Source: Nitrospirota bacterium (GTDB lineage: Bacteria > Nitrospirota > Nitrospiria > Nitrospirales > Nitrospiraceae). From it: a stretch of DNA of 47,934 nucleotides. The stretch's first letter is position 1, and every line of letters starts with the position of its first letter. The notes under the pieces are model-generated. The model was given only the letters and a program-made list of their open reading frames with translations, was not told the origin of the DNA and ran no database searches. This document shows positions 10,701-37,374 of the stretch, one piece after another. The stretch spans positions 1 through 47,934 of the forward strand of contig JAPLLI010000059.1 in NCBI GenBank assembly GCA_026387615.1. The letters are read 5' to 3'. Made by a program: the position numbers and the translations under genes.

Positions 10701-11365
10701 CCCTCTTGCGCGAAGTGCATCACCGGGTGAAGAACAATCTCCAGATCATCTCCAGCCTGCTCCATTTCCAAGCGAAAAAGGCTCAAGATGGGCATGAGCA
10801 ATCCATCTTTACCGAGGGGCAGAACCGACTGCGCTCCATGATCCTGGTCCATGAGCTTCTGTATCGCTCCACCGACCTCCACTGCATTTCCCTCGGCGAA
10901 TATCTCACGATGCTTACCGATCAACTCCGTCACTCCTACCGCGAGGCCGCCACCCGCTTACAGCTCCAGGTCGAGGCCTGCGACCTATCGGTGCCGGCGT
11001 CCATCGCCCTGCCATGCGGCATGATCGTGACGGAACTGGTGACCAATGCGTTCAAATATGCCTACCCGGCAAACCAACGCGGTCCGCTATGCATCCGCAT
11101 CGCCATGGGCGAGGGGGTCTTTCGCCTCTCGGTCTCGGACGAAGGGATCGGTCTTCCAACGACATTCGATCTTACCAAGGCCAGTTCATTTGGACTGCAA
11201 TTGGTCACGAATCTGGCCGGGCAACTGGGGGCGACCCTTACCAGGGAGCCCGGCCACGGCACCACCATTGCCCTGGAGATCCCCTTGCCATCCGGAACGA
11301 TGGACCCGACGCGCCAGTCGGACAATCATCCACGACCGTTCCACACAACTGAAAGCCTCACATGA
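7739..11365 (+). CDS. Multi-PAS sensor histidine kinase (HisKA_2/HWE-like type)
   Basis: A 1208-residue membrane sensor kinase. A first membrane segment near residues 10-26 and a second near 305-325 ([16 protein letters not shown]) frame a large periplasmic sensor domain. Five PAS/PAC units follow from about residue 340 to 975, four of them closed by D-I-(T/S)-E-R-K linkers or close variants. The transmitter begins with [12 protein letters not shown], the HisKA_2 phosphoacceptor motif, and ends with an HATPase with NAFKYAYP and DEGIGLP. It has no receiver of its own; the two receiver-bearing proteins encoded next are likely partners, and the ATGA overlap with the next gene supports this. No clear Shine-Dalgarno site precedes the ATG. 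Confidence 0.9.
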
Positions 11366-12903
11366 ATAGGCCACGCATCTACATCGTGGAGGACGAGGCG
11401 CTGATCGCCATGGAGATCAGCGATCGCTTGACCCACCTAGGCTACGATGTCTGTGGCAAGGCAACGCGCGGCGAGCAGGCATTGGAAGAGATTCCACAGC
11501 TCGCTCCCGACATTGTGCTGATGGACATTCGCCTGGCCGGCAAGCTGACCGGCATCGACACTGCCGCCAAACTGCGCCAGCGCCTGGACCTGCCGGTCGT
11601 CTATCTCACCGCCTTCTCCGATACCCAATTGATCGAGGCGGCCATCAGCACCGAACCATTCGGCTACCTGCTCAAACCCTTTGAAGAACGTGAATTGCAC
11701 GCGACGCTCCAGGCCGCGCTGTATAAACACCGCATGGAACAGCGCCATGCGCAGGCACGAGCGTTGGAGAACCAGCTCCAGATAGCCGGCAGCATCGCCC
11801 ACGAGTTCAACAATCTGCTTCAAGTCATCGCAGGCCATCTGACCCTGGCCCAAATGGCCGTCCAACCGGACAACAGACCCCTAACAGACAACCTGGACAA
11901 GGCCATGCAGGCCGCGCAAACGGCAGCAGGCCTCACCGACAAATTGCTCGTCTACACGGGTAAATCGCTCACAGAACTCAGACCGACCGATCTCAATGAA
12001 ATCGTGCGGACCTATTCAGTCGCCCCGCCCCTCCCTCACAAGCCACACCGTCAGCTTCAACTCAGCCTGGGCGAGGGGATTCCCTCCATCATGGCCAACG
12101 CGCAACAGATCTTGCACCTCATGGATCAGCTGGTCACCAACAGCGCCGAATCCACCGCCGCCGGCCCAGCGACCATTCGACTCAGCACGGGGGTGATGGA
12201 ATATGACGAGGTCACGCTGGCCCGTCACTGCCTGGAAGGCACGGCCAACCCCGGAACCTACGCCTATCTGGAAGTGGACGATGACGGATGCGGCATGGAT
12301 GCCGCCACCCTCCAACGGGCCTTCGACCTGTTCTTCACCACCAAGTTCGTCGGCCGGGGGCTCGGGCTGCCAGCTGTCCGTGGAATCGTGCAGTCGCATG
12401 GGGGCTGCCTCTTCGTCACCAGCCACCCAGGGCAAGGCACGACGGTTCGCGTCCTCTTCCCCCTCACGGACAAGCCACGCGCCGCGACGCACCAGGCGCG
12501 CCCTCAGCAGGCCGAGAGAGACCGGACCGGTTCGGCGCACACCCTGTTGGTGGTGGATGATGCCGCCACGGTACGGCTCTTGAGCCAAGAAGCGCTAGAG
12601 CTCTATGGCTATCGAGTGCTTGCGGCCGAGAGCGGCGCGGCGGCCCTGGCCCTGTTCCAGGAGCACCACAACGAGATCGACGGGGTCCTCCTCGACTTAA
12701 GCATGCCGGGGATGGACGGCATTCAGACCTTCGAGGCGCTGCAGCAGATCAAGCCTGGCACCAAGGTCCTGCTCGTCAGCGGCTATCACCCGGACGCGCT
12801 CCGCCAACAGTATGGAGAAAAGGGATTCAGGGGTTTCCTGAAAAAGCCGTTCCAATTGTCAGAGTTACACGAAGCAGTCGAGACGCTGCTGCGCCATGCA
12901 TAG
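11362..12903 (+). CDS. Hybrid response regulator/histidine kinase (REC-HK-REC)
   Basis: A 513-residue cytoplasmic protein. Residues 1-120 are a receiver with VEDE at 9-12 and phosphoacceptor Asp55 in LMDIRLAG. A dimerisation segment with AHEFNNLL near residue 148 provides the histidine, followed by an HATPase ([23 protein letters not shown]) and a C-terminal receiver with [11 protein letters not shown]. It overlaps the preceding kinase by ATGA, so it is probably its direct phosphotransfer partner. The first receiver is strikingly similar to that of the next gene, pointing to an old tandem duplication. No DNA-binding domain is present, so the output is further phosphotransfer. Confidence 0.88.
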
Positions 12904-12927
12904 CCCCCTGCGCCAACGGTCCCCTCA

Positions 12928-15732
12928 ATGAGCACCACCCGCATCTACATCGTGGAAGACGACGCACTGATCGCGATGGAGCTCATCGATCGCTTGACGC
13001 GCTTGGGCTACGAGGTCTGCGGCAAGGCGGCGCGCGGCGAGCAAGCGCTGGAGGAGATTCTCCGGATCAGCCCCGACCTCGTGCTCATGGATATCCGCCT
13101 GGCCGGCGAACTGACCGGCATCGACACAGCCGCCAGGCTGCGCCGGCTCCTGAACGTTCCAATCGTCTTTCTCAGCGCCTTCTCCGACAGCCAATTGCTC
13201 AAGGAGGCGCTCGGCACCGAGCCCTTCGGGTATCTGATCAAACCCTTCGAGGAACGTGAGCTCCAAACCACCATCCAGGCCGCAGCCTGCCAATACCGGC
13301 GGCAGTGCTCATTGCAGGAAGCCAACCAACGCCTGGACGAAACAGTCCGGCAGCGCGACACGCAACTCCATACGCTCAACGAGAATCTCGAACGTCTCAT
13401 TGCCGAGCGCACAGACGAGTTGCGCGAGAGCGAAGAACGCTTGCGGACCCTCTTCGAGCAGGCGGCGGTGGGCGTCGCGGAGATCGACACGCCAACGGGA
13501 CGGTTCATCCGGATCAACCGCAAGTACGGCGAGATCGTCGACTACTCCATGGAGGAGATGCTCGCGCGCGACTTCATGACCATCACCCACCCAGAGGACC
13601 TTGCGTCCGACCTCGCCCAAATGGAGCGACTCAGGCGCGGCGAGCTGCGCGAGTTCACCCTGGAGAAACGGTACATCCGTAAAGACGGCTCGACCGTCTG
13701 GGTGGAGCTGACCTGCTCGCCCCTGTGGGCAAGAGGCGTGGCGCCGACCAGGCACATGGCCGTCATCAAAGACATCAGCGAACGCAAACAAGTGGAGAGT
13801 CAATTGCGGCTCACGCAATTCGCCGTAGAGCAAGCGGCGGACGCCGTGCTGTGGGCCGATGACACGAAGCGCTTTGTCTATGTCAATGCCGCAGCCTGCC
13901 GCTCGTTGGGGTATACGCGGGAGGAACTGTTGACGCTGCGCATTCCGGATATTGCCCCCCGGCATGATCCCGAACGGTTTCAACAGCGGCTCACGGCCAT
14001 CCAACAGGGCAGGTCTGCCACGTACGAATCCCTTCATCGGCGCAAGGATGGGACGGAGTTTCCCGTCGAGGCCTCCATCGCCTATCTCGAGCACGAGGGA
14101 ACGGGCTATACCTGTGGCATTGTGCGGGATATCACCGAGCGCAAACAGGCGGAGCTGGCGCTGCGCGAGAGCGAGGAACGGTTCCGGATTCTCTTTGAAC
14201 AGGCCGCCGTCGGGGTGGCACAGGTCGAGGCGACGACCGGCCGCTTCGTGCGCGTCAATCAAAAATACTGTGACATCACCGGCTATAGCCAGGCCGAGGC
14301 GCTCGAACTTAATGTCCGGCAACTGACATATCCCGACGATCGTGAAGCGAGCCGCGACAGCATGGCGCGACTCACGGCCGGGGAGATATCAGAATTCAAG
14401 ATGGAGAAGCGCTATCTTCGCAAGGACGGCAGCGTCGTGTGGGTGAAGCTCGTGGTCTCGCCGATGTCGATGCCTGGCGCGGAGTCACACTTTAACATCG
14501 CGGTGGTGCAGGACATCACCGAACGGAAAGAGGCGGAAGCGGCCCTGGACCTGCTCCAGGACCAGGTCCGCCAGATGCAGAAAATGGAAGCGATCGGACA
14601 ATTGGCCGGCGGCGTCGCCCACGACTTCAACAATATCCTCACCGCGATCCTCGGCAATGCCGAAATGGCCTGCGCAAAAATCGCGGCCAACCACCCGGCA
14701 CAGACAAACCTCTCCAGGATTCTCGAAGCCGGCGACCGGGCGTCCCGCCTCGTACAACAAATCCTCACCTTCACACACCAACAAGAACCCACGCGAACCG
14801 TGCTGAATCTCTCTCCGGTCGTGCAGGAAGTCCTCGCGATGCTGCGAGCCACTCTCCCGGCCGGCATCGAGCTGACGGCCACCGAGGATGCAGCCACGCC
14901 CCCGATCCTGGCCGATGCCACCCAGATCCATCAAGTCCTGATGAACCTCTGCACCAACGCCTGGCATGCATTGCATGACCAACCGGGCCGGATCGCGGTG
15001 GACCTGGCGCCGATGACGCTCACCCAGCCGCTCCAGACGCTTCATGCGACACTGCCACCCGGCGGCTATGCCCGCCTGTCCGTCCGGGACAGCGGCTGCG
15101 GCATGGCCCCCGACACAGTGGGGCGTATCTTCGACCCCTTCTTTACCACCAAACCGACAGGGGAGGGCACGGGCCTTGGATTGAGCGTAGTTCACGGCAT
15201 CGTCCGTGGACACGAGGCCGCCATCGTCGTGGAGAGCGAGCCGGGCCAGGGCACGACTTTTCACCTCTATTTCCCCGCTACGGAAGCACTGGCCCAGACG
15301 AATGAACCGCCCCAAACCGTCCCGCTCCTGCAACAAGGCCGGGGCTGTCGCCTGCTCTATCTGGATGACGAGGCCATGTTGGTGGAGCTGATCCGTGCCC
15401 AGTTTGAGCCGCTCGGCTATCGAATCACCGGCTGTACCAGGCCGGCAGAAGCGCTGGCTGCGGTTCGCGCCGATCCTGGCGGATTCGATGTCGTGGTGAC
15501 GGACTATAATATGCCGGAGATGTCCGGCCTAGAGGTGGCGCGCGCCTTCTCACTCCTACGGGCCGATCTGCCAGTGGTGCTGGTGTCGGGCTATCTCTCC
15601 CCGGCCGCCCAGGCTGCGATCCGCGCCGAAGGCATCACGGAGATTGTCTATAAGCCCACCCTGTTGCAGCAATTGGGGGCTGTGATCGCACGCCTCCGCA
15701 CCAAACCAATACCTGGAAACGCTGAACCCTGA
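12928..15732 (+). CDS. Hybrid response regulator/histidine kinase (REC-3xPAS-HK-REC)
   Basis: A 934-residue cytoplasmic hybrid. The N-terminal receiver (Asp55 in [12 protein letters not shown]) is followed by a short coiled coil near 130-165, three PAS units to about residue 535 (linkers DISERKQ, DITERKQ, DITERKE), a HisKA domain with AHDFNNIL, an HATPase (DSGCGMA, FFTTKPTGEGTGLGL) and a terminal receiver with VVTDYNMPEMSG. It follows the REC-HK-REC gene by 24 bases. No transmembrane segment is seen. The last residues and stop codon lie in a heptamer repeat array. The cluster likely forms a branched phosphorelay from the membrane sensor; the stimulus is unknown. Confidence 0.88.
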   Translation: MSTTRIYIVEDDALIAMELIDRLTRLGYEVCGKAARGEQALEEILRISPDLVLMDIRLAGELTGIDTAARLRRLLNVPIVFLSAFSDSQLLKEALGTEPFGYLIKPFEERELQTTIQAAACQYRRQCSLQEANQRLDETVRQRDTQLHTLNENLERLIAERTDELRESEERLRTLFEQAAVGVAEIDTPTGRFIRINRKYGEIVDYSMEEMLARDFMTITHPEDLASDLAQMERLRRGELREFTLEKRYIRKDGSTVWVELTCSPLWARGVAPTRHMAVIKDISERKQVESQLRLTQFAVEQAADAVLWADDTKRFVYVNAAACRSLGYTREELLTLRIPDIAPRHDPERFQQRLTAIQQGRSATYESLHRRKDGTEFPVEASIAYLEHEGTGYTCGIVRDITERKQAELALRESEERFRILFEQAAVGVAQVEATTGRFVRVNQKYCDITGYSQAEALELNVRQLTYPDDREASRDSMARLTAGEISEFKMEKRYLRKDGSVVWVKLVVSPMSMPGAESHFNIAVVQDITERKEAEAALDLLQDQVRQMQKMEAIGQLAGGVAHDFNNILTAILGNAEMACAKIAANHPAQTNLSRILEAGDRASRLVQQILTFTHQQEPTRTVLNLSPVVQEVLAMLRATLPAGIELTATEDAATPPILADATQIHQVLMNLCTNAWHALHDQPGRIAVDLAPMTLTQPLQTLHATLPPGGYARLSVRDSGCGMAPDTVGRIFDPFFTTKPTGEGTGLGLSVVHGIVRGHEAAIVVESEPGQGTTFHLYFPATEALAQTNEPPQTVPLLQQGRGCRLLYLDDEAMLVELIRAQFEPLGYRITGCTRPAEALAAVRADPGGFDVVVTDYNMPEMSGLEVARAFSLLRADLPVVLVSGYLSPAAQAAIRAEGITEIVYKPTLLQQLGAVIARLRTKPIPGNAEP

Positions 15733-22618: not shown

Positions 22619-22978
22619 TCAAAACGATAGGCACCGATCCCGTTCCGCCGCCGCCTTTATATAATCCGGCATACCCTTGATCGTCGCGCCAGACACGAGA
22701 TCCCCCACTCCGATCTGCCGCGCCACGGCGCAGGCCCCGCAGACCCAGATGGGAATATGCGCCGCCTGCACGGCAGCCAGCAGATCTTTCAGCGGCGTCA
22801 GGTTCACCCCTGTCACATGATCGGCAGCGCCCTTGCGTCCGAGCGTCACGGATTCATTCCAGAGCCAGAGGATGACATCGTGCCCTTGCTCCTTTGCCAC
22901 TTTCGCGGCCATGAACGGGAGCGTCGCCATCGTGGGATCATCCGTGCCCCGGCTTCCGGAAATAATAAACGTCGCCAC
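22619..22978 (-). CDS. DsrE-family protein
   Basis: A 119-residue DsrE/DsrF-like protein: Rossmann-type start ATFIISGSRGTDDPTMATLPF, then LWLWNESVTL and a conserved cysteine pair in WVCGACAVARQ near residue 80. Members carry sulfane sulfur or act in sulfur relay in the cytoplasm. The start is GTG with GGAGG at a 6-base spacing. Its stop lies 6 bases from that of the converging kinase gene, leaving no room for a hairpin terminator. It is the last gene of the minus-strand sulfur module. Confidence 0.8.
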   Translation of the reverse strand: MATFIISGSRGTDDPTMATLPFMAAKVAKEQGHDVILWLWNESVTLGRKGAADHVTGVNLTPLKDLLAAVQAAHIPIWVCGACAVARQIGVGDLVSGATIKGMPDYIKAAAERDRCLSF

Positions 22979-23015
22979 TCGATACCTCCTTCGACTCGTC
23001 GTTCGTCAATCGCAT

Positions 23016-23104
23016 GCGCGCGAGAAATGCGGGACAGCTTTTCTCGCGTTTTCCCGCCATTCACGTGCCTATTGCCTGTCGCGCCTTTCTCGCACGTCCC
23101 GCGC
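23016..23104. repeat. GC-rich intercistronic inverted-repeat element between the four-heme cytochrome and DsrE genes
   Basis: CGCGAGAAA (23019-23027) and TTTCTCGCG (23040-23048) form a perfect 9-bp stem with a 12-base loop. Further units of similar composition (GCGGGA and TTTCTCGCA types) continue to about 23104 with roughly 9-base spacing. It begins just after the TAA of the cytochrome gene. Units resemble those of the element between mlaE and mlaF. Confidence 0.65.
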
Positions 23105-23114
23105 ACATCACGCG

Positions 23115-24524
23115 TTACCTTGCAAGACTGCGCACATAATGGATGAGCTGCCACACCTGCTCATCCGGCAATCCGGCAAAGGACATCATGCCGGTCCCAG
23201 GCGATCCGTTCTTGATGATCCAGAACAGCTGCCCGTCCGGAAGGTCTTTCATCATCTTGCCGCATGTGAAGTTTCTGGGCGGAGGAACCAACGCCGCCCC
23301 CATGAAGCCTTGCCCGTTTCCTTGTTTTCCATGGCACATCGCACAGGCAACCGGCTGCGCCGACTGGAGGAATAAGGCTTTTCCGGCATTGATCGTTCCT
23401 TCAGAAGCCGGAAGCGGATTGGTTTTAGACAAGAAGTCCCCTGGCGCCTTCACGGTTTTCCGCTCTTGAGGACAGACACCCGTTGGTCCGCCACCCGATT
23501 GGGCAGCGGCCATCTCAGGGACGCCCTTGAACGTTGCCTTCAGATAGGCCATCACATCGGCCACGCCCTGCTGGCCGATGGTCAAGTTCCAATAGGGCAT
23601 GTTCGGCGATTTGCCCATCGCGGCGCCGCCATGGTTGATGACGTTGTAGAGATAGTCGATCGGAAGCTTTTCAAATGGAATGTTGGCATGGATCGCCGGT
23701 TTCGGATCCAACCCGGAAGCTGCCGGTCCGTCACCTTTGCCCGTCGCGCCGTGGCATTGCGAGCAATATTCCTTGTAGACGACTTTGCCACGATCGACGC
23801 TGGCCATCCCGAACTCCTGGCTGGTCCATGGCTCGTAGTACTTGAAGTCCTTCACGCCTTGCACCATGAGGAACCCGATCACCGCCCGGAGCTGTGGCTC
23901 CGTCGCATCGGCCAGAAACTCCCCGCTATGCGGCACGAAGTCTTGTGGATTCTGCCCGAAGCGGAAGAGCCAATCCTGATCGTATCGCTGTCCTGCTGCC
24001 ACGAGCGATGCACTCTGCGGCCCTCCGATGATCTTGCCGTTCTCTTCGATGACGTGGCAACCGAGACAGGCATGCGCCTTAAAGGCCATGCCACCGAAGG
24101 CGGCGTCGAACTTACTCACCTTCGCAAGATCGAACGCGCCGACGGTGACGCGCGGATCTTTGTTGTGCACAGCAAAGTAATCGGCGATCGCGTTGGCCTC
24201 CGACTCGGTGACCATCGGATGCTTGGACGGGGCCTCGGTGAGATCCCATCGGTAGCCCTTGGCATACAGCGGCGCTTCTTTGCCCGTCAGCCACCCGATC
24301 AACCAGGTCCGCTTGTACTTACTGCCGGCCCAGATGAGGTCTGGCGCCTTCAGATTGAAACGCGAGTCCGGCTTGCCTTCCAGCCTGTGGCATTGCACAC
24401 AGGTCTGCTGGATGATGTCCTTCGCGCGCGACTGATCGCTCCCGAACAATAGCCGGGGGGACAGGCCCATCGCTACGGCCAACATCAGCATGGCACCGAC
24501 AACCATGACCCGTCTTGTCTGCAT
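23115..24524 (-). CDS. Periplasmic four-heme cytochrome c
   Basis: A 469-residue exported cytochrome with signal peptide and four CxxCH sites: CVQCH near residue 42, then CLGCH, CSQCH and CAMCH. It reads as consecutive cytochrome c domains, each ending with an Ile/Val-x-x-Tyr/Phe helix, the last of which (IKNGSPGTGM) is closely related to the monoheme cytochrome at 15.9 kb. GGAGGAG before the ATG at 24524 places the start 5 codons inside the track ORF. It lies downstream of OsmC, the YedE pair and the TsdA-like enzyme on the same strand and is a reasonable electron acceptor for that module. Confidence 0.85.
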   Translation of the reverse strand: MQTRRVMVVGAMLMLAVAMGLSPRLLFGSDQSRAKDIIQQTCVQCHRLEGKPDSRFNLKAPDLIWAGSKYKRTWLIGWLTGKEAPLYAKGYRWDLTEAPSKHPMVTESEANAIADYFAVHNKDPRVTVGAFDLAKVSKFDAAFGGMAFKAHACLGCHVIEENGKIIGGPQSASLVAAGQRYDQDWLFRFGQNPQDFVPHSGEFLADATEPQLRAVIGFLMVQGVKDFKYYEPWTSQEFGMASVDRGKVVYKEYCSQCHGATGKGDGPAASGLDPKPAIHANIPFEKLPIDYLYNVINHGGAAMGKSPNMPYWNLTIGQQGVADVMAYLKATFKGVPEMAAAQSGGGPTGVCPQERKTVKAPGDFLSKTNPLPASEGTINAGKALFLQSAQPVACAMCHGKQGNGQGFMGAALVPPPRNFTCGKMMKDLPDGQLFWIIKNGSPGTGMMSFAGLPDEQVWQLIHYVRSLAR

Positions 24525-24558
24525 GTTGCTCCTCCTCAATACCAGTCATTCAAGAATG

Positions 24559-24656
24559 GTCTGTCTGGTCTGTCTAGTCTCTCTCGTCTGGCTGGTCTAT
24601 TCGGTCTATCTGGTTTAACAAACTACGCGGGACCGACCAGATGAACCAGACAGACC
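24559..24656. repeat. 9-base-period tandem and inverted repeat element between OsmC and the four-heme cytochrome
   Basis: Six contiguous plus-strand nonamers fill 24559-24612: GTCTGTCTG, GTCTGTCTA, GTCTCTCTC, GTCTGGCTG, GTCTATTCG and GTCTATCTG. After a 22-base spacer, an inverted arm (GACCAGATG, AACCAGACA) runs from 24635 to 24656. On the minus-strand transcript this is a long imperfect hairpin, 21 bases after the osmC stop codon and before the ribosome site of the cytochrome gene. Confidence 0.8.
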
Positions 24657-24677
24657 TTCCCCTCATTCCTGTCACCA

Positions 24678-25085
24678 TCAGGCCGAACGGTGATGGGGGT
24701 TCAGTTCAATCGTCACGCCGGCCGGCACCGCGATGGATTGATGCACCGTGCAACCATGTGCCACTTTCAGGAGCCGCTCGTTCTGTTCGGCCGCAAGGCG
24801 ATGCGGCACATGAATCCTCAGTGCAACCTGCCCCACCCGATGCGGCTGTTCCGCCATCGTCCATGCTGCCTCGATGCTCAATCCTTTGGTCGAGATCTGA
24901 TGCCGGTCACAATAGCGCCCGACGAAATACCCCACGCAACTGGCGATGGAACCGACAAAGAGTTCAACGGGGCTCATGCCGGCATCCTGCCCCCCATCCT
25001 CGATCGGCTGATCGGTCACCACGCGATGCGCGCCGCTGGTAATGTCGTAGCGAGTCCCGCCATGGTAGGCCACGGTCAGTTTCAT
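24678..25085 (-). CDS. OsmC-family protein
   Basis: A 135-residue OsmC/Ohr-fold protein with the two catalytic cysteines in ASCVGYF near residue 45 and HGCTVHQS near residue 110, and the DAGMSPVELF motif. Such enzymes reduce organic hydroperoxides or act on sulfane sulfur. The ATG at 25085 overlaps the stop of the yedE-like gene as ATGA and has AGGAGG upstream. Its place between sulfur transport genes and DsrE suggests a sulfur-linked thiol role rather than general peroxide stress; this is inference from context. Confidence 0.85.
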   Translation of the reverse strand: MKLTVAYHGGTRYDITSGAHRVVTDQPIEDGGQDAGMSPVELFVGSIASCVGYFVGRYCDRHQISTKGLSIEAAWTMAEQPHRVGQVALRIHVPHRLAAEQNERLLKVAHGCTVHQSIAVPAGVTIELNPHHRSA

Positions 25086-25612
25086 CGCGCACCTCCTGGT
25101 TTCGGAAGACGCAACGCAAGCCAGAGGCACAGAGCCCCCAGCGGAGCGGCAATCCAGAGGCCCCTCACCCCGAACGACCCATGAATCGTCACAGGCCCGT
25201 ACCGTCCGAACGAGAACAGGGCTGCTTCCAAATCAGGAAACATGAACGCAAAGACCAGCGCGCCAAGCAACCCGCCAAGGACTGTCACCCAGGCATCCGG
25301 CTTCCCCTCTGCTGCTGCGGCCAACGCCGTGCCAGGACAATAGCCTGCCACGGCGAATCCGATACCGAAAATCAGTCCCCCCAGCACCAGGCCAGGCAAA
25401 TACAACTCCTTCACCTTCATATGGGCGACGCCCCACAGATCCAACAGATGCACCCCGATCAATCCCACCCCGATCGCCGTCAGGATGAGTTTCATGATCG
25501 TGAAATCTTTCAGCCGTAACGCGTTGATGATCTTCGTCTGGCTGGAGGCCCCTGACAGCTGAAGCACCGCACCGAACGCAGCCCCCAGAGTCAGCCCCAA
25601 CAACAACTTCAT
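25082..25612 (-). CDS. YeeE/YedE-type sulfur transporter half (second)
   Basis: A 176-residue membrane protein with about five helices. The motif GFAVAGYCPGTALAAAAEGK carries the conserved G-x-x-x-x-GYCPGT of the YeeE/YedE (thiosulfate or sulfur uptake) family. The true start is the ATG at 25612, which overlaps the stop of the preceding family member by ATGA; the track ORF beginning at 25942 is an artefact of the upstream gene. With its partner it makes a two-gene version of the longer single-chain transporters. Confidence 0.85.
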   Translation of the reverse strand: MKLLLGLTLGAAFGAVLQLSGASSQTKIINALRLKDFTIMKLILTAIGVGLIGVHLLDLWGVAHMKVKELYLPGLVLGGLIFGIGFAVAGYCPGTALAAAAEGKPDAWVTVLGGLLGALVFAFMFPDLEAALFSFGRYGPVTIHGSFGVRGLWIAAPLGALCLWLALRLPKPGGAR

Positions 25613-26148
25613 CGCGTCCCCCAATCGCCATACAGCCACCGCGCCATGATGATCGCGCTGACAAAGACCGACGCTGAAAAGATGAGCGAACTGACCGCCA
25701 ACTGAGAGACACCGCTGATCATATGGCCGGAGGTGCAGCCCCCACCGAATCGCGCGCCGAACAGGAGAGTAAATCCCCCGATGAACGACCAGACCAGACG
25801 CCTTCCGGGAATTGGCCCAACTCGACGGCCCCACTCGGATGGCACGAGTCTCGTGCTGAATCGCTGCGTGACCCATGAAGCGAGAAACGCGCCGAGCGGA
25901 ATGCCCAGCACAAAAAAGAACTCGTAGTTGAGAAGCGTCCACCCGGCTGCAGCATCCGCGAGATAGGGACTCCTCTCCGCCACGTCAGGAAGGACGTGAT
26001 GCAGCAGGACCCCGTCCAGCACGGCATATTGGGTGGAGACGCCGATCGGTTGGGCCAGCGCCACCGCGAGGATTAAAACGATCCCGATTCCCAAGCCGCC
26101 GGCCCACCAGGGAATCGCAGGGACCACATGGACCACGTCATTCCGCAT
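25609..26148 (-). CDS. YeeE/YedE-type sulfur transporter half (first)
   Basis: A 179-residue membrane protein with four to five helices and the family motif GARFGGGCTSGHMISG, containing the conserved cysteine that relays thiosulfate in the TsuA/YeeE family. It is coupled by ATGA to the second half encoded next, so the two products likely form one transporter. Placement directly after the TsdA-like enzyme supports thiosulfate or a related sulfur compound as substrate. Confidence 0.85.
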   Translation of the reverse strand: MRNDVVHVVPAIPWWAGGLGIGIVLILAVALAQPIGVSTQYAVLDGVLLHHVLPDVAERSPYLADAAAGWTLLNYEFFFVLGIPLGAFLASWVTQRFSTRLVPSEWGRRVGPIPGRRLVWSFIGGFTLLFGARFGGGCTSGHMISGVSQLAVSSLIFSASVFVSAIIMARWLYGDWGTR

Positions 26149-26170
26149 ATGTCAACCGTTTCCCCTGACG

Positions 26171-26217
26171 CGTCATTCGTCTTGTGTCGCTCACGAGGGA
26201 CAGGTCACGCCTCACGA
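26171..26217. repeat. Weak heptamer element between the TsdA-like and YedE genes
   Basis: Heptamers CTCACGA (26190-26196), GGGACAG, GTCACGC and CTCACGA (26211-26217) follow each other, with CGTCATT and CGTCTTG units further left. The CGTCATTCGT segment also occurs in the elements at 5583 and 45855. It begins directly after the TAG of the TsdA-like gene. The arms pair poorly, so it is a degenerate case. Confidence 0.5.
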
Positions 26218-26218
26218 G

Positions 26219-27061
26219 CTAGTACGGTGAATCTGCCGGCTTCCCACCCTGCGGCCAATCGCGAACTTTATCGGCAAAATCAGGCCGGGGCTGGCTGTTC
26301 ACGTAAGCCGCGACATCGTAGGCATCATCATCCGACAGGCTCCAACCCCTGGCACGAGGCATGTTCGACTTAATGAAGGCAGCGGCGACCGTCACTCGTG
26401 CCATCCCTGCGGCGATGGTGTACGACGCTGGCCCCCAGACAGGCGGCGCCGCCATCGTGCCCTGGCCGTCCGAGCCGTGGCAGAAGACACATTTATTCGC
26501 AAATATTTTCTTTCCGTTGGCTGGATCGAGGGAGCGGCGTGAATCGATATGTTGGAGGCCCCGCCAGGGCAAGGCCGCGCCTTGCGGCACTCCCTGCGAG
26601 AGCCAGGTGATATAGGCCACGATGGCCTGGAGCTTGGAACTGTCCGGTGGAAGCGCGCGCCCATTCAAGCTTCGCTCGAAACACTCATTGATCCGATCGG
26701 CGAGCGTGTGCATGCTCGCCGTACGTGCGCGATACTCGGGATAGACTGCCGCCAAGCCAACAAATGACATGGCGTTCGGATTGAGCCCTCCGTCGAGATG
26801 ACAGCTGCTGCAATTCAGACGATTACCGACATAGGGTTTCCCATACTCCTGCGTGTTGACGACAATTTCATAACCCAGCCTGATCTGTTCACCCAGTTGG
26901 CTACCTGGAATAGTTTCCGGGGAGGGCGGGGCGAACTCTATCGAGGCCCTGCCACCCTGGTCCGCTCCATGATGCTCCTCGCTTTTCACCAGATCCGTTT
27001 CGCTGGAGCAGCCCACGAGCATGAACATCCCAAGCATTGCCGATAACAACCACATCATCAT
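26219..27061 (-). CDS. tsdA: TsdA-like diheme cytochrome c, probable thiosulfate dehydrogenase
   Basis: A 280-residue diheme cytochrome with a lipobox cysteine at residue 18 (LVGC). Heme 1 is CSSCH at 84-88, followed by LDGGLNP and VYPEYRAR; Cys127 in RINECFERSLNG lies 39 residues after His88, where TsdA enzymes carry the cysteine axial ligand of the active-site heme. Heme 2 is CVFCH at 191-195, followed by PPVWGPASYTIAAGM, the Met234 of SNMP and DVAAYVNSQPRPDF, all characteristic of TsdA. TsdA couples two thiosulfates to tetrathionate or works in reverse. The lipoprotein anchor and the neighbouring YedE pair are notable. Direction of catalysis cannot be read from sequence. Confidence 0.82.
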   Translation of the reverse strand: MMMWLLSAMLGMFMLVGCSSETDLVKSEEHHGADQGGRASIEFAPPSPETIPGSQLGEQIRLGYEIVVNTQEYGKPYVGNRLNCSSCHLDGGLNPNAMSFVGLAAVYPEYRARTASMHTLADRINECFERSLNGRALPPDSSKLQAIVAYITWLSQGVPQGAALPWRGLQHIDSRRSLDPANGKKIFANKCVFCHGSDGQGTMAAPPVWGPASYTIAAGMARVTVAAAFIKSNMPRARGWSLSDDDAYDVAAYVNSQPRPDFADKVRDWPQGGKPADSPY

Positions 27062-27237: not shown

Positions 27238-28566
27238 TTAGGGGGTTCGCTTGAGGCTCAAGATGTAACTGGTCAAATCGTTGAGCTGCTTATCGTCCAA
27301 CGGAAATTTTGGCATGAACGACCCTGGCGATACCGACTGAGGATCTCGAAAATGCTTCACATGCCAGGCACGCTCCGGCCTCGTGTCGCCGACGTACGAC
27401 AAGTCCGGCCCAATCGCGGCCCCTTCACCGTGAATGCGATGACAGCCCACGCACCCGAACTGAGCAAAGAGCGCATGCCCGCGCGCGAGAGCCGGGTCCA
27501 CACGCGGCACGGCATAGAGATTCTTGAGCGAGAGACCCAGCAAGGCAAACACCACCAGGAGAAACAACAGACCCGAAACCAGCGCCACAGGGCGCTTGAT
27601 CGGATTGCGCACGGGATTCCTGTCGATGAAGGGCCACAAGAACAAACCCAGGATGACAACCATCGGCAGCACCCATGTCGCCAGCGGCTCCAACGGCCCA
27701 TGCACATACTTCAACAATTCGTAATAGAAGAGAAAATACCATTCCGGCACCGGGACGAAGCTGGTGTCTGACGGATTGGCCTTATCAGTCAAGGGAAACG
27801 GCAACAGCAGCGCGAGGCTCGAGAGAATGGCAAAGACCGCCAACATGACGACGGCATCCATATAGACCTGCCGAGGATAGAAGGTCTCGCGGCTGAGTGC
27901 CGCCCGCTCATCCGTCCAGGGCCCGGCCGGCCCCACACGTCGCAGAATGAAAAGATGCGCAGCGATTAACGTGAGCAGAATCGCCGGCAGAAACAACACA
28001 TGGACGGCGAAGAAGCGGGATAAGGTGAGCGCCCCTAACAACTCCCCGCCCCGCATGACCTTCATCAGGAACTCTCCGACCAGCGGAACAGTGCCCACCA
28101 TATTGAGGCCGATCTGCGTCGCCCAATAGGCAGTTTGATCCCACGGCAGCAGATAGCCGGTGAAGGCAAATGCCATCACGATGAGAAACAGCACCACGCC
28201 GACCATCCACATCACTTCGCGTGGCGGCTTATAGGCCCCATACAAAAAGGCCTGGAGCATATGCAGCCCGATCGCAATCACCATCCCTGACGCGCCCCAG
28301 TGGTGGAGCCCGCGCACGAAGGCGCCGAATGTGACCTGTTCTTCAATAAACTGAATACTGTCGTAGGCATGGTCCGGAGTTGGCGCATAGTAGACGGCGA
28401 GAAACATGCCGGTCACGGCTTGCAGAAGAAAGAGAAAGAGTGTGGCCGAGCCGAACACATAGATCCAGCTCGCGCCACCGGGAATCGGTTCGTCGAGCAG
28501 AGTCCGTTCGACCGACTTAAGGTTCAATCGGCGGTCAAGCCATGTATAGACGGGGCCTTGCTTCAT
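27238..28566 (-). CDS. Cytochrome b fused to cytochrome c (bc complex)
   Basis: A 442-residue fusion. The N-terminal cytochrome b helices show the heme-ligand histidines in FVRGLHHWGASGM and IGLHMLQ, and then in VHVLFLPAIL and AAHLFIL. PEWYF near residue 255 is the quinol-oxidation site motif. Four further helices end near residue 350 and a monoheme domain with CVGCH near residue 372 and a later Met (GSFMPKF) follows. It makes the quinol oxidase core of complex III together with the Rieske protein upstream. Fusing the c-domain to cytochrome b replaces a separate cytochrome c1 and resembles arrangements in Nitrospira and Gram-positive relatives. Confidence 0.9.
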   Translation of the reverse strand: MKQGPVYTWLDRRLNLKSVERTLLDEPIPGGASWIYVFGSATLFLFLLQAVTGMFLAVYYAPTPDHAYDSIQFIEEQVTFGAFVRGLHHWGASGMVIAIGLHMLQAFLYGAYKPPREVMWMVGVVLFLIVMAFAFTGYLLPWDQTAYWATQIGLNMVGTVPLVGEFLMKVMRGGELLGALTLSRFFAVHVLFLPAILLTLIAAHLFILRRVGPAGPWTDERAALSRETFYPRQVYMDAVVMLAVFAILSSLALLLPFPLTDKANPSDTSFVPVPEWYFLFYYELLKYVHGPLEPLATWVLPMVVILGLFLWPFIDRNPVRNPIKRPVALVSGLLFLLVVFALLGLSLKNLYAVPRVDPALARGHALFAQFGCVGCHRIHGEGAAIGPDLSYVGDTRPERAWHVKHFRDPQSVSPGSFMPKFPLDDKQLNDLTSYILSLKRTP

Positions 28567-28846: not shown

Positions 28847-29392
28847 CTAGAGCTCTACCGGCAACTTCTGCCCGGACTTAAACTCTTTGTACATGACGAG
28901 CAGTCGTCCTGCTTCGATTTTTGTCGGCAAGCGATCCAAGGCGCGGGGCGCAGGACCAGCCACTACCTCGCCGGTCACATCATAGACGCTGCCATGGCAG
29001 GGACACTTGAACCGGCGATCCGTCGCATCCCAATGGTAGCCGCAGCCCAGGTGCGTGCAGAGAGGAGCGAACACCGTGACGGCGCCGTCCGGATGCTTGA
29101 CCGCCCAGACGGCCTTCTGAGTCTTGGCCTCCATGTACCCGTCCCTGGCGATCGTCACATAGTCGAGCTGTGTCGGTTCTCCCTCTTGCAACGTATCGAG
29201 CTGACCGACCTCTACCCACGATTGGGCTCGGCGCTTCAGCGCTGGCGAGATCACATACCCGGCCAGAGGAATCGCGAGCCCGAGCCCGACCAGCCCTGCC
29301 GCCACTCTCGTCACCCAGCAAAAAAACCTCCGCCTCGACCCGACAGGCGTGTGGTCCCCCCCTTCGGCAGGAATTTCCGAATGCTCACTCAC
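28847..29392 (-). CDS. Rieske [2Fe-2S] protein of the bc complex
   Basis: A 181-residue Rieske protein with a single N-terminal membrane anchor (VAAGLVGLGLAIPLAGYV) and the two cluster motifs CTHLGC and CPCHGS, both complete and spaced normally. The track ORF starts at 29551, but the GTG at 29392 has GGAGG at a 6-base spacing and gives a conventional N-terminus, so I use it. It transfers electrons from quinol to the cytochrome c domain of its partner. Confidence 0.92.
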   Translation of the reverse strand: MSEHSEIPAEGGDHTPVGSRRRFFCWVTRVAAGLVGLGLAIPLAGYVISPALKRRAQSWVEVGQLDTLQEGEPTQLDYVTIARDGYMEAKTQKAVWAVKHPDGAVTVFAPLCTHLGCGYHWDATDRRFKCPCHGSVYDVTGEVVAGPAPRALDRLPTKIEAGRLLVMYKEFKSGQKLPVEL

Positions 29393-29590
29393 CCTATTCC
29401 TCCATTCATCTTCCAGCGATGCTGATACAGGAGGCTCACCGAGGCCACCTATGCACCGACGACACAAGCCCTGGCGAAGAGCATGAGAGAGAGAAAAAAA
29501 CATCGTACGCCGATCCGTGCAGATGCTACGCGCATGAGGCTCATTCTGCAAGATCGCGTGTGGTCAGTTTTCAGACTAGGCGGCCGTTTT

Positions 29591-29995
29591 TCACTGCGAG
29601 CAGCGCACGAAAATCTCTTCGCAATGGTCCTCGGCTCCCAACCATGCCGGCATCGACTCAAATCGCACATCCGTCACTCGGTCCCCCTCGAGGGTGACGG
29701 TCGCTCGGCAACTATGCGGCACGCTTCGCGCCCCGCTCGACTTCGCGCCAGGGACGGAAAGTTCGACGAGCTCAGCTTCCTCTTGATAGACCAGCGCGGT
29801 CAGCCCTTGGAACAGACTCTCTCGTTTCGGGGCACCGGCACAGCTAAGCAGCTCCTGCTTCGTCTTGCCCTTTAAGACAATCGCCAGCTTTAGGGATGCC
29901 GTTCGATCCTCCGGAACGCCAGCACAGGCAGAAAACGACAGTCCCAGTAACGCCACCAGCCCCAACCTCGCGACTCGGCAGAACGTCCATCTCAT
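29591..29995 (-). CDS. Small lipoprotein of unknown function
   Basis: A 134-residue protein with signal peptide and lipobox FSAC. The mature part begins GVPEDRTASLKLAIVLKGKTKQELLSCAG and resembles a small SmpA/BamE-like alpha-beta fold in that it carries a G-x-T-(K/R)-x-E-(L/V) turn; the match is too weak to name. Its start overlaps the end of the cytochrome c gene as ATGA, and the bc-complex genes follow, so an accessory role in that complex or its assembly is possible. Confidence 0.6.
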   Translation of the reverse strand: MRWTFCRVARLGLVALLGLSFSACAGVPEDRTASLKLAIVLKGKTKQELLSCAGAPKRESLFQGLTALVYQEEAELVELSVPGAKSSGARSVPHSCRATVTLEGDRVTDVRFESMPAWLGAEDHCEEIFVRCSQ

Positions 29996-30369
29996 CGAAG
30001 TCCGCTCCCCATGCCGCCGGTGTGTTCTGGTGCCAGCGTCCTGACATAGGCGAGCGCATCCCAAATCTCGTCGTCGGAGAGTGATTCCCTCCAGGCGCCC
30101 ATCGCGGTATTCGGCTTGCCGTCATGCACACTCTTGAACAACCTCGCATCCAACTTTCCTTGAATGGCCGGGGACGTGAGGTCAGCCACCGGAGGAGTGA
30201 ACTTCATCGGTCCCTCTCCCTTCCCATCGGCCCCATGACAACGGATGCAGATCGTCGAATAGATCACTCTGCCACTGAGCACATCTCGCTCTGGCTGAGA
30301 CTGGTTCAACTCTTTCAAGCCTCCCCCAGCCATCGCCACAACCACAAGGCCGACCAATACAGCGTTCAT
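29992..30369 (-). CDS. Small monoheme cytochrome c
   Basis: A 125-residue exported monoheme cytochrome. A hydrophobic N-terminus (NAVLVGLVVVAMAGGGL) precedes CIRCH near residue 42, GADGKGEGPMKF and the late DEIWDALAYVRTL helix. It leads the operon that continues with the lipoprotein and the bc complex, so it is a likely soluble or anchored electron carrier for complex III. Confidence 0.82.
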   Translation of the reverse strand: MNAVLVGLVVVAMAGGGLKELNQSQPERDVLSGRVIYSTICIRCHGADGKGEGPMKFTPPVADLTSPAIQGKLDARLFKSVHDGKPNTAMGAWRESLSDDEIWDALAYVRTLAPEHTGGMGSGLR

Positions 30370-33747: not shown

Positions 33748-36120
33748 TCATCCACGGAATGATGGCCATCGCCAATGACGAATCTCTGGCAGATCGTCGC
33801 CATGCTCCGAAATATACTGCGTATGCTCAATGAGTTTTTCCCCGAGCGCTTGCTTGGCAGAGGCAGCCCGCGCCCCCAGCTGAGGTAGCCGGTCGATCAC
33901 ATCGCCGGCCAGATGGAACCGGTCGAGATCGTTCATGACTGTCATATCGAACGGGGTGGTGGTGGTCCCTTCTTCCTTATATCCTCGCACATGCAAATTC
34001 TTATGGTTCGTCCGGCGATAGGTCAGGCGATGGATCAGCCAGGGATAGCCATGAAACGCGAAGATGATCGGCTTATCGGACGTGAACAACCTGTCGAACT
34101 CCTGATCGCTCAAGCCGTGAGGGTGCTCACGCTGCGGTTGGAGCTTCATCAAGTCCACCACATTAATCACCCGGATCTTGAGGCGAGGGAAAAAGCCCCT
34201 GAGCAATTCGACGGCGGCCAATGTTTCCAACGTCGGCACGTCGCCGCAGCAGGCCATCACGACATCCGGCTCACCGCCCCGGTCGTTGCTGGCCCAGGGC
34301 CAGATGCCAAGGCCGGCGGCGCAATGCGTGATCGCGGCATCCATGTTCAACCATTGGGGCCCCGGTTGCTTGCCGGCCACAATCACGTTCACGTAGTTGC
34401 GACTGCGCAAACAATGATCCGTGATAGACAAGAGGGTGTTCGCGTCCGGCGGAAGATAGACCCGGATGACCTCGGCTTTTTTGTTCACCACATGATCGAT
34501 GAACCCAGGATCCTGGTGGCTGAACCCGTTGTGATCCTGCCGCCACACATGCGACGACAAGAGATAATTCAAGGAGGCAATCGGCCGCCGCCAGGGAATC
34601 CGATTGGAGACTTTGAGCCACTTGGCATGCTGATTGAACATCGAGTCGACGATATGGATAAAGGCTTCATAACAGGAGAACAGGCCGTGGCGGCCCGTCA
34701 AGAGATAGCCTTCGAGCCAGCCTTCGCACTGATGCTCGCTCAACATCTCCATCACGCGGCCATCCGGCGCTACATGATCATCGCCGGGGATGATCGCGGC
34801 CGTCGAGCATCGGTTCGTCACCTCGAACAGGGCGCCCCATCGGTTCGAGGCCGTCTCGTCCGGGCTGAACACGCGAAAATTATTGGAATTGGCTTTCGCC
34901 ACGTCACGGATAAACTCGCCCTGGACACGAGTGGCCTCACTATCCACCGCGCCGGGTCTCTGCACGTTCACCGCATAATTGCGAAAATCCGGCAGGCGCA
35001 GGTCCTGCAGCAAGAGGCCGCCATTGGCATGAGGATTGGCGCTCATGCGAAAGGGGCCGGTCGGCGCCAGATCCGCCAGCTCAGGCATGAGCTTGCCGGT
35101 CTTGCCGAAGAGCTCACCTGGTTTGTAACTCTTCATCCAGGTCTCAAGAATTCTGATGTGGCCTGGCTTGGCCATCTCACCCATCGGCACCTGATGTGAG
35201 CGGAAGGTCCCTTCCGTCCTCTTCCCATCCACAACCTTCGGCCCGGTCCAGCCCTTCGGCGAACGCAGGATGATCATCGGCCACCGGGGCCGCTTGCTAA
35301 ATCCCTTCGTCCGCGCCGCCCGCTGAATCTTCTTGATGTCCGCCACGACCTTGTCGAGGGTGGCGGCCATCTGTTGATGCATCCCGGCGGGATCGTCGCC
35401 CTCGACGAAATAGGGACGGTAGCCATACCCGACAAACAACGATGCCAACTCGTCATGCGGAAGCCGGGACAGCACCGTGGGGCCGGCAATCTTGTACCCG
35501 TTCAGATGCAGGATCGGCAGCACGGCGCCGTCCCGCACAGGATTCAGAAACTTGTTCGAATGCCAGCTGGTCGCCAGCGGACCGGTTTCCGCCTCCCCGT
35601 CGCCCACGACGCAGGCCACGAACAGGTCAGGATTGTCGAACGCCGCGCCGAACGCATGCGACAGCGAATAGCCCAACTCGCCGCCCTCATGAATAGACCC
35701 CGGTGTCTCCGGCGAGACGTGACTCGGGATGCCGCCAGGAAAAGAGAACTGTTTGAACAGGCGCTTCATTCCCTGTTCATCTTGCGAGATATTCGGATAA
35801 ACCTCGCTATAGGTGCCTTCAAGATACGCGTTCGCCACCAACCCTGGTCCGCCATGGCCTGGCCCTGTGACATACAGGACGTTCAGATCATAGGTCTTGA
35901 TCATACGGTTCAAATGGACATAGACGAAGTTCAGCCCCGGCGTCGTACCCCAGTGACCCAACAGGCGCGGCTTGATATGGGCCAGCGTGAGCGGCTTCTT
36001 CAATAACGGATTATCGTAGAGATAGATCTGCCCCACGGACAAATAATTCGCCGCCCGCCAGTAGGCATGGATCTTTCTCAGCAGATCTGGACTCAGCGGC
36101 TTCTGCTTGGTCTGGGGCAT
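33748..36120 (-). CDS. xfp: Phosphoketolase
   Basis: A 790-residue TPP enzyme that cleaves xylulose 5-phosphate and/or fructose 6-phosphate with phosphate to give acetyl phosphate. The N-terminal part has the family pattern [24 protein letters not shown] and GPGHGGPG; the TPP site is [19 protein letters not shown]. The late segment with [13 protein letters not shown] is also typical. Acetate kinase is encoded immediately upstream and would convert the acetyl phosphate to acetate plus ATP. Full length, with GAGGA before the ATG. Whether it prefers the pentose or the hexose substrate cannot be read. Confidence 0.95.
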
Positions 36121-36162
36121 TGATTCCTCGTGATAATGAACGACGCGACGACCCGTTTCACC

Positions 36163-37374
36163 TTATTGCTCCTGATCGAGTAGCAGCCGGACAGAACGGG
36201 CGATCTGGCTCTCCTCATCCGTGTGGATAACGCGCACCGTGACGCCACATCCCTCCTTCGAAATGATCCCGGCATCCGCTGCGTTGGGAGCCTCATCCAC
36301 CACCACGCCAAGGAACCCCAGTCCTTCGCAGATCCGCGACCGGATGACCGATGAATGTTCACCGATCCCGCCGCTAAAGACGAGCGTGTCCAGTCCGCCC
36401 AGGGCCGCAGCAAACGCGCCGATCCACTTCTTAGCCTGGTAACAAAAAAGCGCCACAGCTTCCGCGGCGCGCGGATCATGCCGTTCGCTCGCCAAGAGAT
36501 CCCGCAGATCGGAACTAGTCTCCGACAGGCCCAGCAATCCCGATTGCCGATTGACCATCGTATGGAATTGCTCGACGGTCATCCCCTCCGTTCTCGACAA
36601 ATAGGCGACCAGCCCTGGGTCGAGATCGCCAGAACGGGTGCTCATCGGCAATCCGGATGTGGGCGTAAACCCCATGCTCGTGTCGATGCTCTGGCCCGCT
36701 CGTACCGCCGCCATGCTCGCCCCATTGCCCAGATGAGCCAGGATGACCAGGCCCTGCGCCTCATGAGGCGCGAGACGCCCGAGTTCCTCCATCAAGTAGG
36801 CATAGGACAGGCCGTGAAACCCGTAGCGCTGCACGCCGGACGCCTCGTACCGTCTGGGGATCGGCAAAAGACGCGCGACGCGCGGCATGCCGCGATGAAA
36901 GGCAGTGTCAAAACAGGCCACTTGCAGAAGCGTTGGATACCGTTGTCCGAACGCCTCGATCAACTCAATCTCGGCCGGCAAATGTTCCGGGTCATAGGGG
37001 CTCAGCCGACGCAGTTCATCCATGACCTCCTGAGTGAGGCGCTGCGGCTCGCGATAGCGAGGCCCCCCCTGCACCACGCGATGCCCGATGGCCACAAGCT
37101 CTGCGCGCGGGATCTGCTGTTCCAGCCAGGCCATGAGCGGTTCGAGACAGTCCTTGTGATGCGCAAGCTGCAGCATCCTGCGCTCGCTGGTTCCCCCCGC
37201 CAGGTCCGTGAGGGTCATGCTTCCCCCGGGAAGCCCGATTCGATCGACCAGGCAGGACAGCACAGGAGTCAGAAGAGGAGCAACGTGGAAGAGGGAACAC
37301 TTGAGGCTCGATGAGCCTCCATTGATGGTCAGGATGAAGCCCTGTGACTGGTGGGAGGGATCGCGCAGACTCAC
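36163..37374 (-). CDS. ackA: Acetate kinase
   Basis: A 403-residue acetate kinase of the ASKHA fold. INGGSSSLKCS at the N-terminus is the first phosphate-binding loop, RYGFHGLSYAYL and LAHLGNGASMAAV are the family signatures, and DTSMGFTPTSGLPMSTRSGDLDP is specific to AckA. FSGGIGEHSS near the end is the adenosine-binding loop. The start is GTG with an AGAGG site. It is the first gene of a run with phosphoketolase (42-base gap). Confidence 0.95.
   Translation of the reverse strand: MSLRDPSHQSQGFILTINGGSSSLKCSLFHVAPLLTPVLSCLVDRIGLPGGSMTLTDLAGGTSERRMLQLAHHKDCLEPLMAWLEQQIPRAELVAIGHRVVQGGPRYREPQRLTQEVMDELRRLSPYDPEHLPAEIELIEAFGQRYPTLLQVACFDTAFHRGMPRVARLLPIPRRYEASGVQRYGFHGLSYAYLMEELGRLAPHEAQGLVILAHLGNGASMAAVRAGQSIDTSMGFTPTSGLPMSTRSGDLDPGLVAYLSRTEGMTVEQFHTMVNRQSGLLGLSETSSDLRDLLASERHDPRAAEAVALFCYQAKKWIGAFAAALGGLDTLVFSGGIGEHSSVIRSRICEGLGFLGVVVDEAPNAADAGIISKEGCGVTVRVIHTDEESQIARSVRLLLDQEQ

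Follow-up and report, generated by a model that had tools for sequence, protein, structure and literature searches.

Six neighbouring genes at positions 22619-27061 of a 47,934-nucleotide stretch of Nitrospira DNA (the window of this report: GenBank assembly GCA_026387615.1, contig JAPLLI010000059.1) probably form an accessory module that would oxidize thiosulfate and sulfane sulfur and feed the cytochrome c pool, a reading to which we assign a probability of roughly 0.6. The window belongs to a metagenome-assembled genome (MAG) of 2.64 Mb in 281 contigs that is 88.9% complete. A check of the open reading frames of the window confirmed all six genes on the minus strand, in the order TsdA-like protein, C-terminal YedE half, N-terminal YedE half, OsmC, four-haem cytochrome and DsrE, and each product matches a Pfam family above its cut-off. 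The two ATGA overlaps (25082-25085 and 25609-25612) are seen in the sequence, and the arrangement described in an initial annotation of this DNA holds in its coordinates, strand and overlaps. The presence of the locus in both nitrite-oxidizing and comammox members of the genus suggests that partly oxidized sulfur can serve these nitrifiers as an additional source of electrons.

The gene at 26219..27061 (minus strand; PF21342, SoxA-TsdA_cyt-c, and PF13442) encodes a dihaem cytochrome c and predicted lipoprotein of 280 amino acids that is TsdA as judged from its sequence, ligands and modelled fold. A lipobox-like MLVGC (Cys18), two CXXCH motifs (residues 84-88 and 191-195), Cys127 and Met234 can be read directly from the translation; the haem sites are C84-C87-H88 and C191-C194-H195, and the predicted axial ligands are H88/C127 at haem 1 and H195/M234 at haem 2. 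The top matches among solved structures (phmmer) are both to the TsdA of A. vinosum, at 182 bits for 4wqc (the K208N variant) and 179 bits for 4wq7. A model of the protein (predicted local distance difference test, pLDDT, 88) superimposes on 4wq7 with a root-mean-square deviation of 1.7 A, a TM-score (TMt) of 0.92 and 42% identity over 233 columns, and SoxA structures fit it far more weakly, at a TMt of about 0.3. Cys127 aligns with Cys96 of the A. vinosum enzyme, a haem-1 ligand (PMC6879331), and Met234 with Met209, while Arg113 and Arg123, counted from the aligned cysteine, are the counterparts of the substrate-pocket arginines Arg109 and Arg119. Among 27 relatives taken from whole-genome searches with a query that held no motif, both haem histidines, Cys127 and Arg123 are kept in 27/27, Arg113 in 26/27 and Met234 in all 26 that align at this position; Cys127 is likewise invariant in an alignment of 38 rows. 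A count of Cys127 over 75 loci was set aside as proof because the search pattern, [EQ]C[FM]ERSLN, itself includes that cysteine, and the motif-free count is used in its place. Sequence, superposition and conservation thus agree on the TsdA-like protein with two haem sites, Cys127 and Met234 that had been annotated, and the replacement of Cys127 in orthologues that might have told against it was not seen. In a tree built from 68 sequences, all TsdA proteins of the Nitrospirota fall into a single group, with 97/86 support.

Most relatives found with the TsdA profile are Nitrospira, including the nitrite oxidizers N. moscoviensis and Ca. N. defluvii along with numerous comammox or environmental genomes, and the locus as a whole is conserved in cultivated N. 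moscoviensis (L076), in Ca. N. defluvii (L088) and in comammox members. Contigs labelled Pyrinomonadaceae (JAMQPH01; L054, L057 and L099) carry a Nitrospira-like TsdA at 79-82% identity and were probably wrongly binned. The gene set is kept from 83% down to about 53% TsdA identity, and across this range the core order persists while the flanks change. In 29 long loci, all with TsdA, OsmC occurs 27 times, DsrE 26, the multihaem cytochrome 25, a downstream polyphosphate-kinase-2-like gene 22 and the pair PmpA plus PmpB (the YedE halves, see below) 11. PmpB is found in 14 of 61 genomes, each of which has TsdA, and in 13 of them it lies beside TsdA on the same contig. Within the genus DsrE is present in 24/25 genomes with TsdA and 0/7 of the others, and the multihaem cytochrome in 23/25 and 0/7, respectively. 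Better evidence for a unit than such within-genus counts comes from the persistence of the core order to about 53% identity, from three deep Nitrospirota (L100, L101, L106) in which DsrE alone adjoins TsdA, directly after it and with the other module genes absent, and from loci of Bacteroidota (L109) and Myxococcota (L103, L104) in which PmpAB and TsdA lie close together. The first two of these observations, together with the fact that PmpB is never met without TsdA, speak against the notion that unrelated genes were kept together by shared ancestry; the inherited gene order within the genus and the variability of PmpAB and SorAB would fit such chance neighbours, a notion that we find scarcely credible. 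The set is found repeatedly within the genus, and the random association in relatives that could have undermined the annotated module was not what we found.

Several observations nevertheless weigh against the oxidation module. The within-genus counts are not independent events, as linked neighbours can be lost together; outside the Nitrospirota only 3/23 TsdA loci have PmpAB; and PmpAB and SorAB are missing from so many loci that they must be regarded as optional. Several small genomes of the genus are without the module altogether, and tsdA is broken in two others, which marks it as dispensable: in G033 (L143:9154-10222) only the last 30 codons or so of tsdA remain, between intact OsmC and DsrE genes and with SQR and TauE upstream, and in G025 (L146:6693-7058) a truncated tsdA is left and the other module genes are gone.

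The paired YedE halves of the initial annotation fit PmpA and PmpB (YedE1 and YedE2), as judged by alignment. PmpA (25609..26148, minus strand), the C-terminal half of YeeE, covers positions 177-309 of PF04143 (Sulf_transp) and aligns to residues 238-315 of S. thermophila TsuA; PmpB (25082..25612, minus strand), the N-terminal half, covers positions 13-150 of the same family and aligns to TsuA residues 4-118. Their key cysteines, C138 in PmpA and C92 in PmpB, are kept in 17/17 sequences each and sit in the alignment at the positions of TsuA Cys293 and Cys91. The two genes encode 176 and 179 amino acids, against 330-350 for the single protein TsuA/YeeE, and neither half reaches the NCBIfam cut-offs for TsuA. 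PmpA and PmpB have been proposed as the halves of a YeeE heterodimer (PMC11582611). It had been stated in the annotation that YeeE/YedE proteins import thiosulfate, and for full-length YeeE/TsuA, which requires YeeD, this stands (PMC11073785). For the present pair it is weakened, since zero-valent sulfur enters E. coli through YedE1E2 pairs but not through full-length YedE3 (PMC10812762), and since a Pfam scan found no TusA-domain (YeeD/TsuB-like) partner among the six genes, the TusA-family genes of this genome lying on other contigs. Because split pairs carry zero-valent sulfur and YeeE needs a YeeD that the locus does not encode, the import of sulfane (zero-valent) sulfur into the cytoplasm would be a better reading of the pair than the direct import of thiosulfate.

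The transporter evidence also bears on the second use that the annotation had offered, namely that thiosulfate is taken up for cysteine synthesis. The match of both halves to TsuA might be cited for it, given that full-length members of this family do import thiosulfate (PMC11073785), but the missing YeeD partner and the substrate of the split pairs (PMC10812762) point the other way, neither TsdA nor the multihaem cytochrome is needed for assimilation, and two strong PAPS_reductase-family genes, adjacent to each other in the window's genome, fit ordinary sulfate assimilation. Genes for sulfur assimilation have been described previously in Nitrospira (PMC5767232), and we consider a role of the locus in this process very improbable.

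The two small proteins of the locus might be the cytoplasmic counterparts of the transporter. The OsmC-like protein (24678..25085, minus strand; PF02566) has Cys50, Cys59 and Cys112 conserved in 46/46 sequences, and the DsrE-family protein (22619..22978, minus strand; PF02635) has Cys80 and Cys83 conserved in 40/40 that align. Both families include thiol and persulfide proteins, and in an oxidation module OsmC and DsrE would take up sulfane sulfur as persulfide or hand it on. The same family membership would suit a different role, in which PmpAB, OsmC and DsrE, with SQR, TauE and SorAB in relatives, hold down the levels of sulfide, persulfide and sulfite, and TsdA does no more than clear the resulting thiosulfate, for little gain in energy. 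TauE and SQR-type genes do adjoin the locus in relatives, and E. coli cells with YedE1E2 pairs contain more persulfide and less reactive oxygen species (PMC10812762). Homeostasis or detoxification of this kind deserves consideration but appears to us rather unlikely, for the abundance of c-type cytochromes at the locus, and the cytochrome b beside part of the loci, point to the harvest of electrons, and SQR is rare, being found in 7/61 genomes and absent from the window's MAG.

For the oxidation of thiosulfate and sulfane sulfur, our preferred reading, we propose that a membrane-anchored periplasmic TsdA would join two thiosulfates into tetrathionate by way of a Cys127-S-thiosulfonate intermediate at haem 1, and that haem 2, with its His/Met ligands, would hand the electrons to c-type cytochromes encoded nearby, from which they would reach the terminal oxidase. 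The thiosulfate/tetrathionate couple lies at +198 mV (PMC9562282), from which it follows that electrons would enter at the level of cytochrome c and not at the quinone pool, and that the neighbouring bc-type genes might at most serve reverse flow. Delivery of electrons into the cytochrome pool, the other use put forward in the annotation, is plausible. The best candidate acceptor for the electrons of TsdA would be the multihaem cytochrome (23115..24524, minus strand; three matches to PF00034 and one to PF13442), which also neighbours SorA in G050, G060 and G032, genomes that lack a full TsdA, and is therefore a plausible electron acceptor shared by both enzymes. Its annotation as a four-haem cytochrome is right for the protein of the window, which has 4 CXXCH motifs in about 469 amino acids, but this form is not constant: five close relatives (G001, G002, G008, G017, G036) have a three-haem form of about 335 amino acids, whose match covers no more than residues 1-335 or 1-337. 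An AlphaFold model of the four-haem cytochrome was discarded at a pLDDT of 50.

The direction of catalysis is a further point on which the oxidative reading can be questioned. The position of A. vinosum Lys208 is occupied by Asn233, with Lys231 two residues earlier, and the resulting K-x-N-M pattern is that of C. jejuni TsdA, in which the methionine ligates haem 2 also in the oxidized state and catalysis is fast in both directions (PMC5146829); by this likeness the TsdA of the window may work both ways. It may accordingly run as a tetrathionate reductase, for which the C. jejuni enzyme is well suited (PMC5146829), and might in vivo be an electron sink at low oxygen that is fed by the cytochrome pool. 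We think this unlikely, as relatives pair TsdA with an oxidative enzyme, sulfite dehydrogenase, as Nitrospira are by general knowledge mainly aerobic, and as C. jejuni TsdA is fast at thiosulfate oxidation as well (PMC5146829).

The annotation overlooked a wider island around the module in relatives (SorA/SorB, SQR, TauE), as well as a copy of SorAB elsewhere in the genome of the window. SorA/SorB-like genes for sulfite dehydrogenase, with a dihaem cytochrome as the second partner, lie inside 12 of the 29 long loci; the SorA-like proteins score 242 bits against the sulfite:cytochrome c oxidoreductase SorA (2blf), and those of L033 match the NCBIfam SorA/SorB entries below the curated cut-offs. 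No sorA or sorB lies between OsmC and the cytochrome in the window, and the SorA-like gene of this genome, with an overlapping dihaem cytochrome gene, is on another contig (G000:C249; L132:1523-3384), where it is flanked by P-type ATPase-like and glucose-6-phosphate-dehydrogenase-like genes in an arrangement shared with G001 (L133). An SQR-type pyridine-nucleotide-disulfide oxidoreductase, so named from our reading of the sequence, and a TauE exporter are encoded upstream in L031, L032 and L034. In these fuller loci the step from sulfite to sulfate would fall to SorAB, and SQR and TauE would deal with sulfide and sulfite; in the window's genome the SorAB genes are on the separate contig. SorA is present in 0/12 genomes of the genus with amoA and in 13/20 of the others, counts that ignore kinship. 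A strict rule that comammox lacks SorAB was softened, as L070, of another lineage, has both amoA and SorA, and sulfite dehydrogenase has been reported in comammox LK70 and WS110 (PMC7078480). SoxB gave no match in the window's MAG (88.9% complete) and nothing over the cut-off in the 61 genomes, so that the system is not a Sox pathway; SoxB matches in some relatives fell below the cut-off, were obtained with control genomes too and were taken as related hydrolases. The same MAG, at this completeness, gave no match to AmoA or to NXR-beta-like proteins; the latter are matched in 47/61 genomes, and their absence here is not used as evidence on nitrite oxidation.

Upstream of the six genes and on the same strand are a cytochrome b-cytochrome c fusion (27238..28566; PF00033, PF00032, PF00034), a Rieske protein (28847..29551; PF00355) and a single-haem cytochrome c (29992..30369; PF13442), which we treat as context and not as core. 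The fusion is found upstream of TsdA in 8/29 long loci, with N. moscoviensis and N. defluvii among the genomes that have it there, and a relative of the single-haem cytochrome in 23/29. A convergent hybrid histidine kinase gene lies downstream of the six. Elsewhere in the window, adjoining phosphoketolase-like and acetate-kinase-like genes (33748-37374) form a pair that several relatives also have close to their TsdA locus, and three very large signalling genes stand in a row on the plus strand (7739-15732), with PAS, kinase and receiver domains recognized by eye.

Nitrospira are key nitrite oxidizers, and the comammox bacteria known to date belong to them. With the putative thiosulfate module conserved in species that are in culture, N. 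moscoviensis and Ca. N. defluvii, the claim of an alternative electron donor can be tested directly, as can its bearing on nitrifiers at sulfide/oxygen interfaces. More tentatively, and at somewhat less than even odds, TsdA, PmpAB, OsmC and DsrE, with SorAB in fuller forms, might constitute an ancestral system for the oxidation of thiosulfate and sulfane sulfur in Nitrospira, comammox included, that supports a mixotrophic supply of electrons and, at redox boundaries, ties nitrification to the cycling of sulfur. Sulfite dehydrogenase is already known from the genus (PMC7078480, PMC8115632), and a survey of the order by comparative genomics from 2025 takes up SorAB (mostly in lineage IV) and SQR, but its main text is silent on TsdA (PMC12342949). 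In the open-access literature that was searched, neither tsdA nor pmpAB was found to be described for Nitrospira, in keeping with the remark in the annotation that this exact set is not known as a described unit; every protein family is known, and the combination appears to be new.

Comparison with known systems brings out what is shared and what is particular to this locus. The TsdA proteins of A. vinosum, C. jejuni and M. purpuratum (TsdBA), known as thiosulfate dehydrogenases or tetrathionate reductases, have the same fold, two haem sites, cysteine ligand, two arginines and methionine ligand, whereas the protein described here is a predicted lipoprotein, has Asn233 for the A. vinosum Lys208 as in C. 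jejuni, and is encoded in a multi-gene sulfur locus; unlike in TsdBA no TsdB is seen, and the three- or four-haem cytochrome is possibly the partner. The PmpA/PmpB of Serratia and the YedE1E2 of Cupriavidus and Sinorhizobium are also neighbouring genes for YeeE halves with one conserved cysteine position each, but they encode about 130 amino acids against 176-179 here, and their neighbours are a persulfide dioxygenase and a rhodanese in place of TsdA and OsmC. TsuA/YeeE with TsuB/YeeD belongs to the same Sulf_transp family, to which both halves align, and differs in being neither split into two genes nor without its YeeD partner. The SorAB reported from Nitrospira, Nitrospina and comammox resembles, as a SorA-like gene with a c-type cytochrome, the pair in the locus of relatives and elsewhere in this genome, although the cytochrome here has two haems, the L033 proteins stay under the NCBIfam cut-offs and the window itself is without SorAB. 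A comparable tsdA region has been reported from Ca. Nitrotoga NtogaGL1b (PMC9239080), a nitrite oxidizer of a different phylum in which tsdA, cytochromes and transport of sulfur compounds are likewise brought together.

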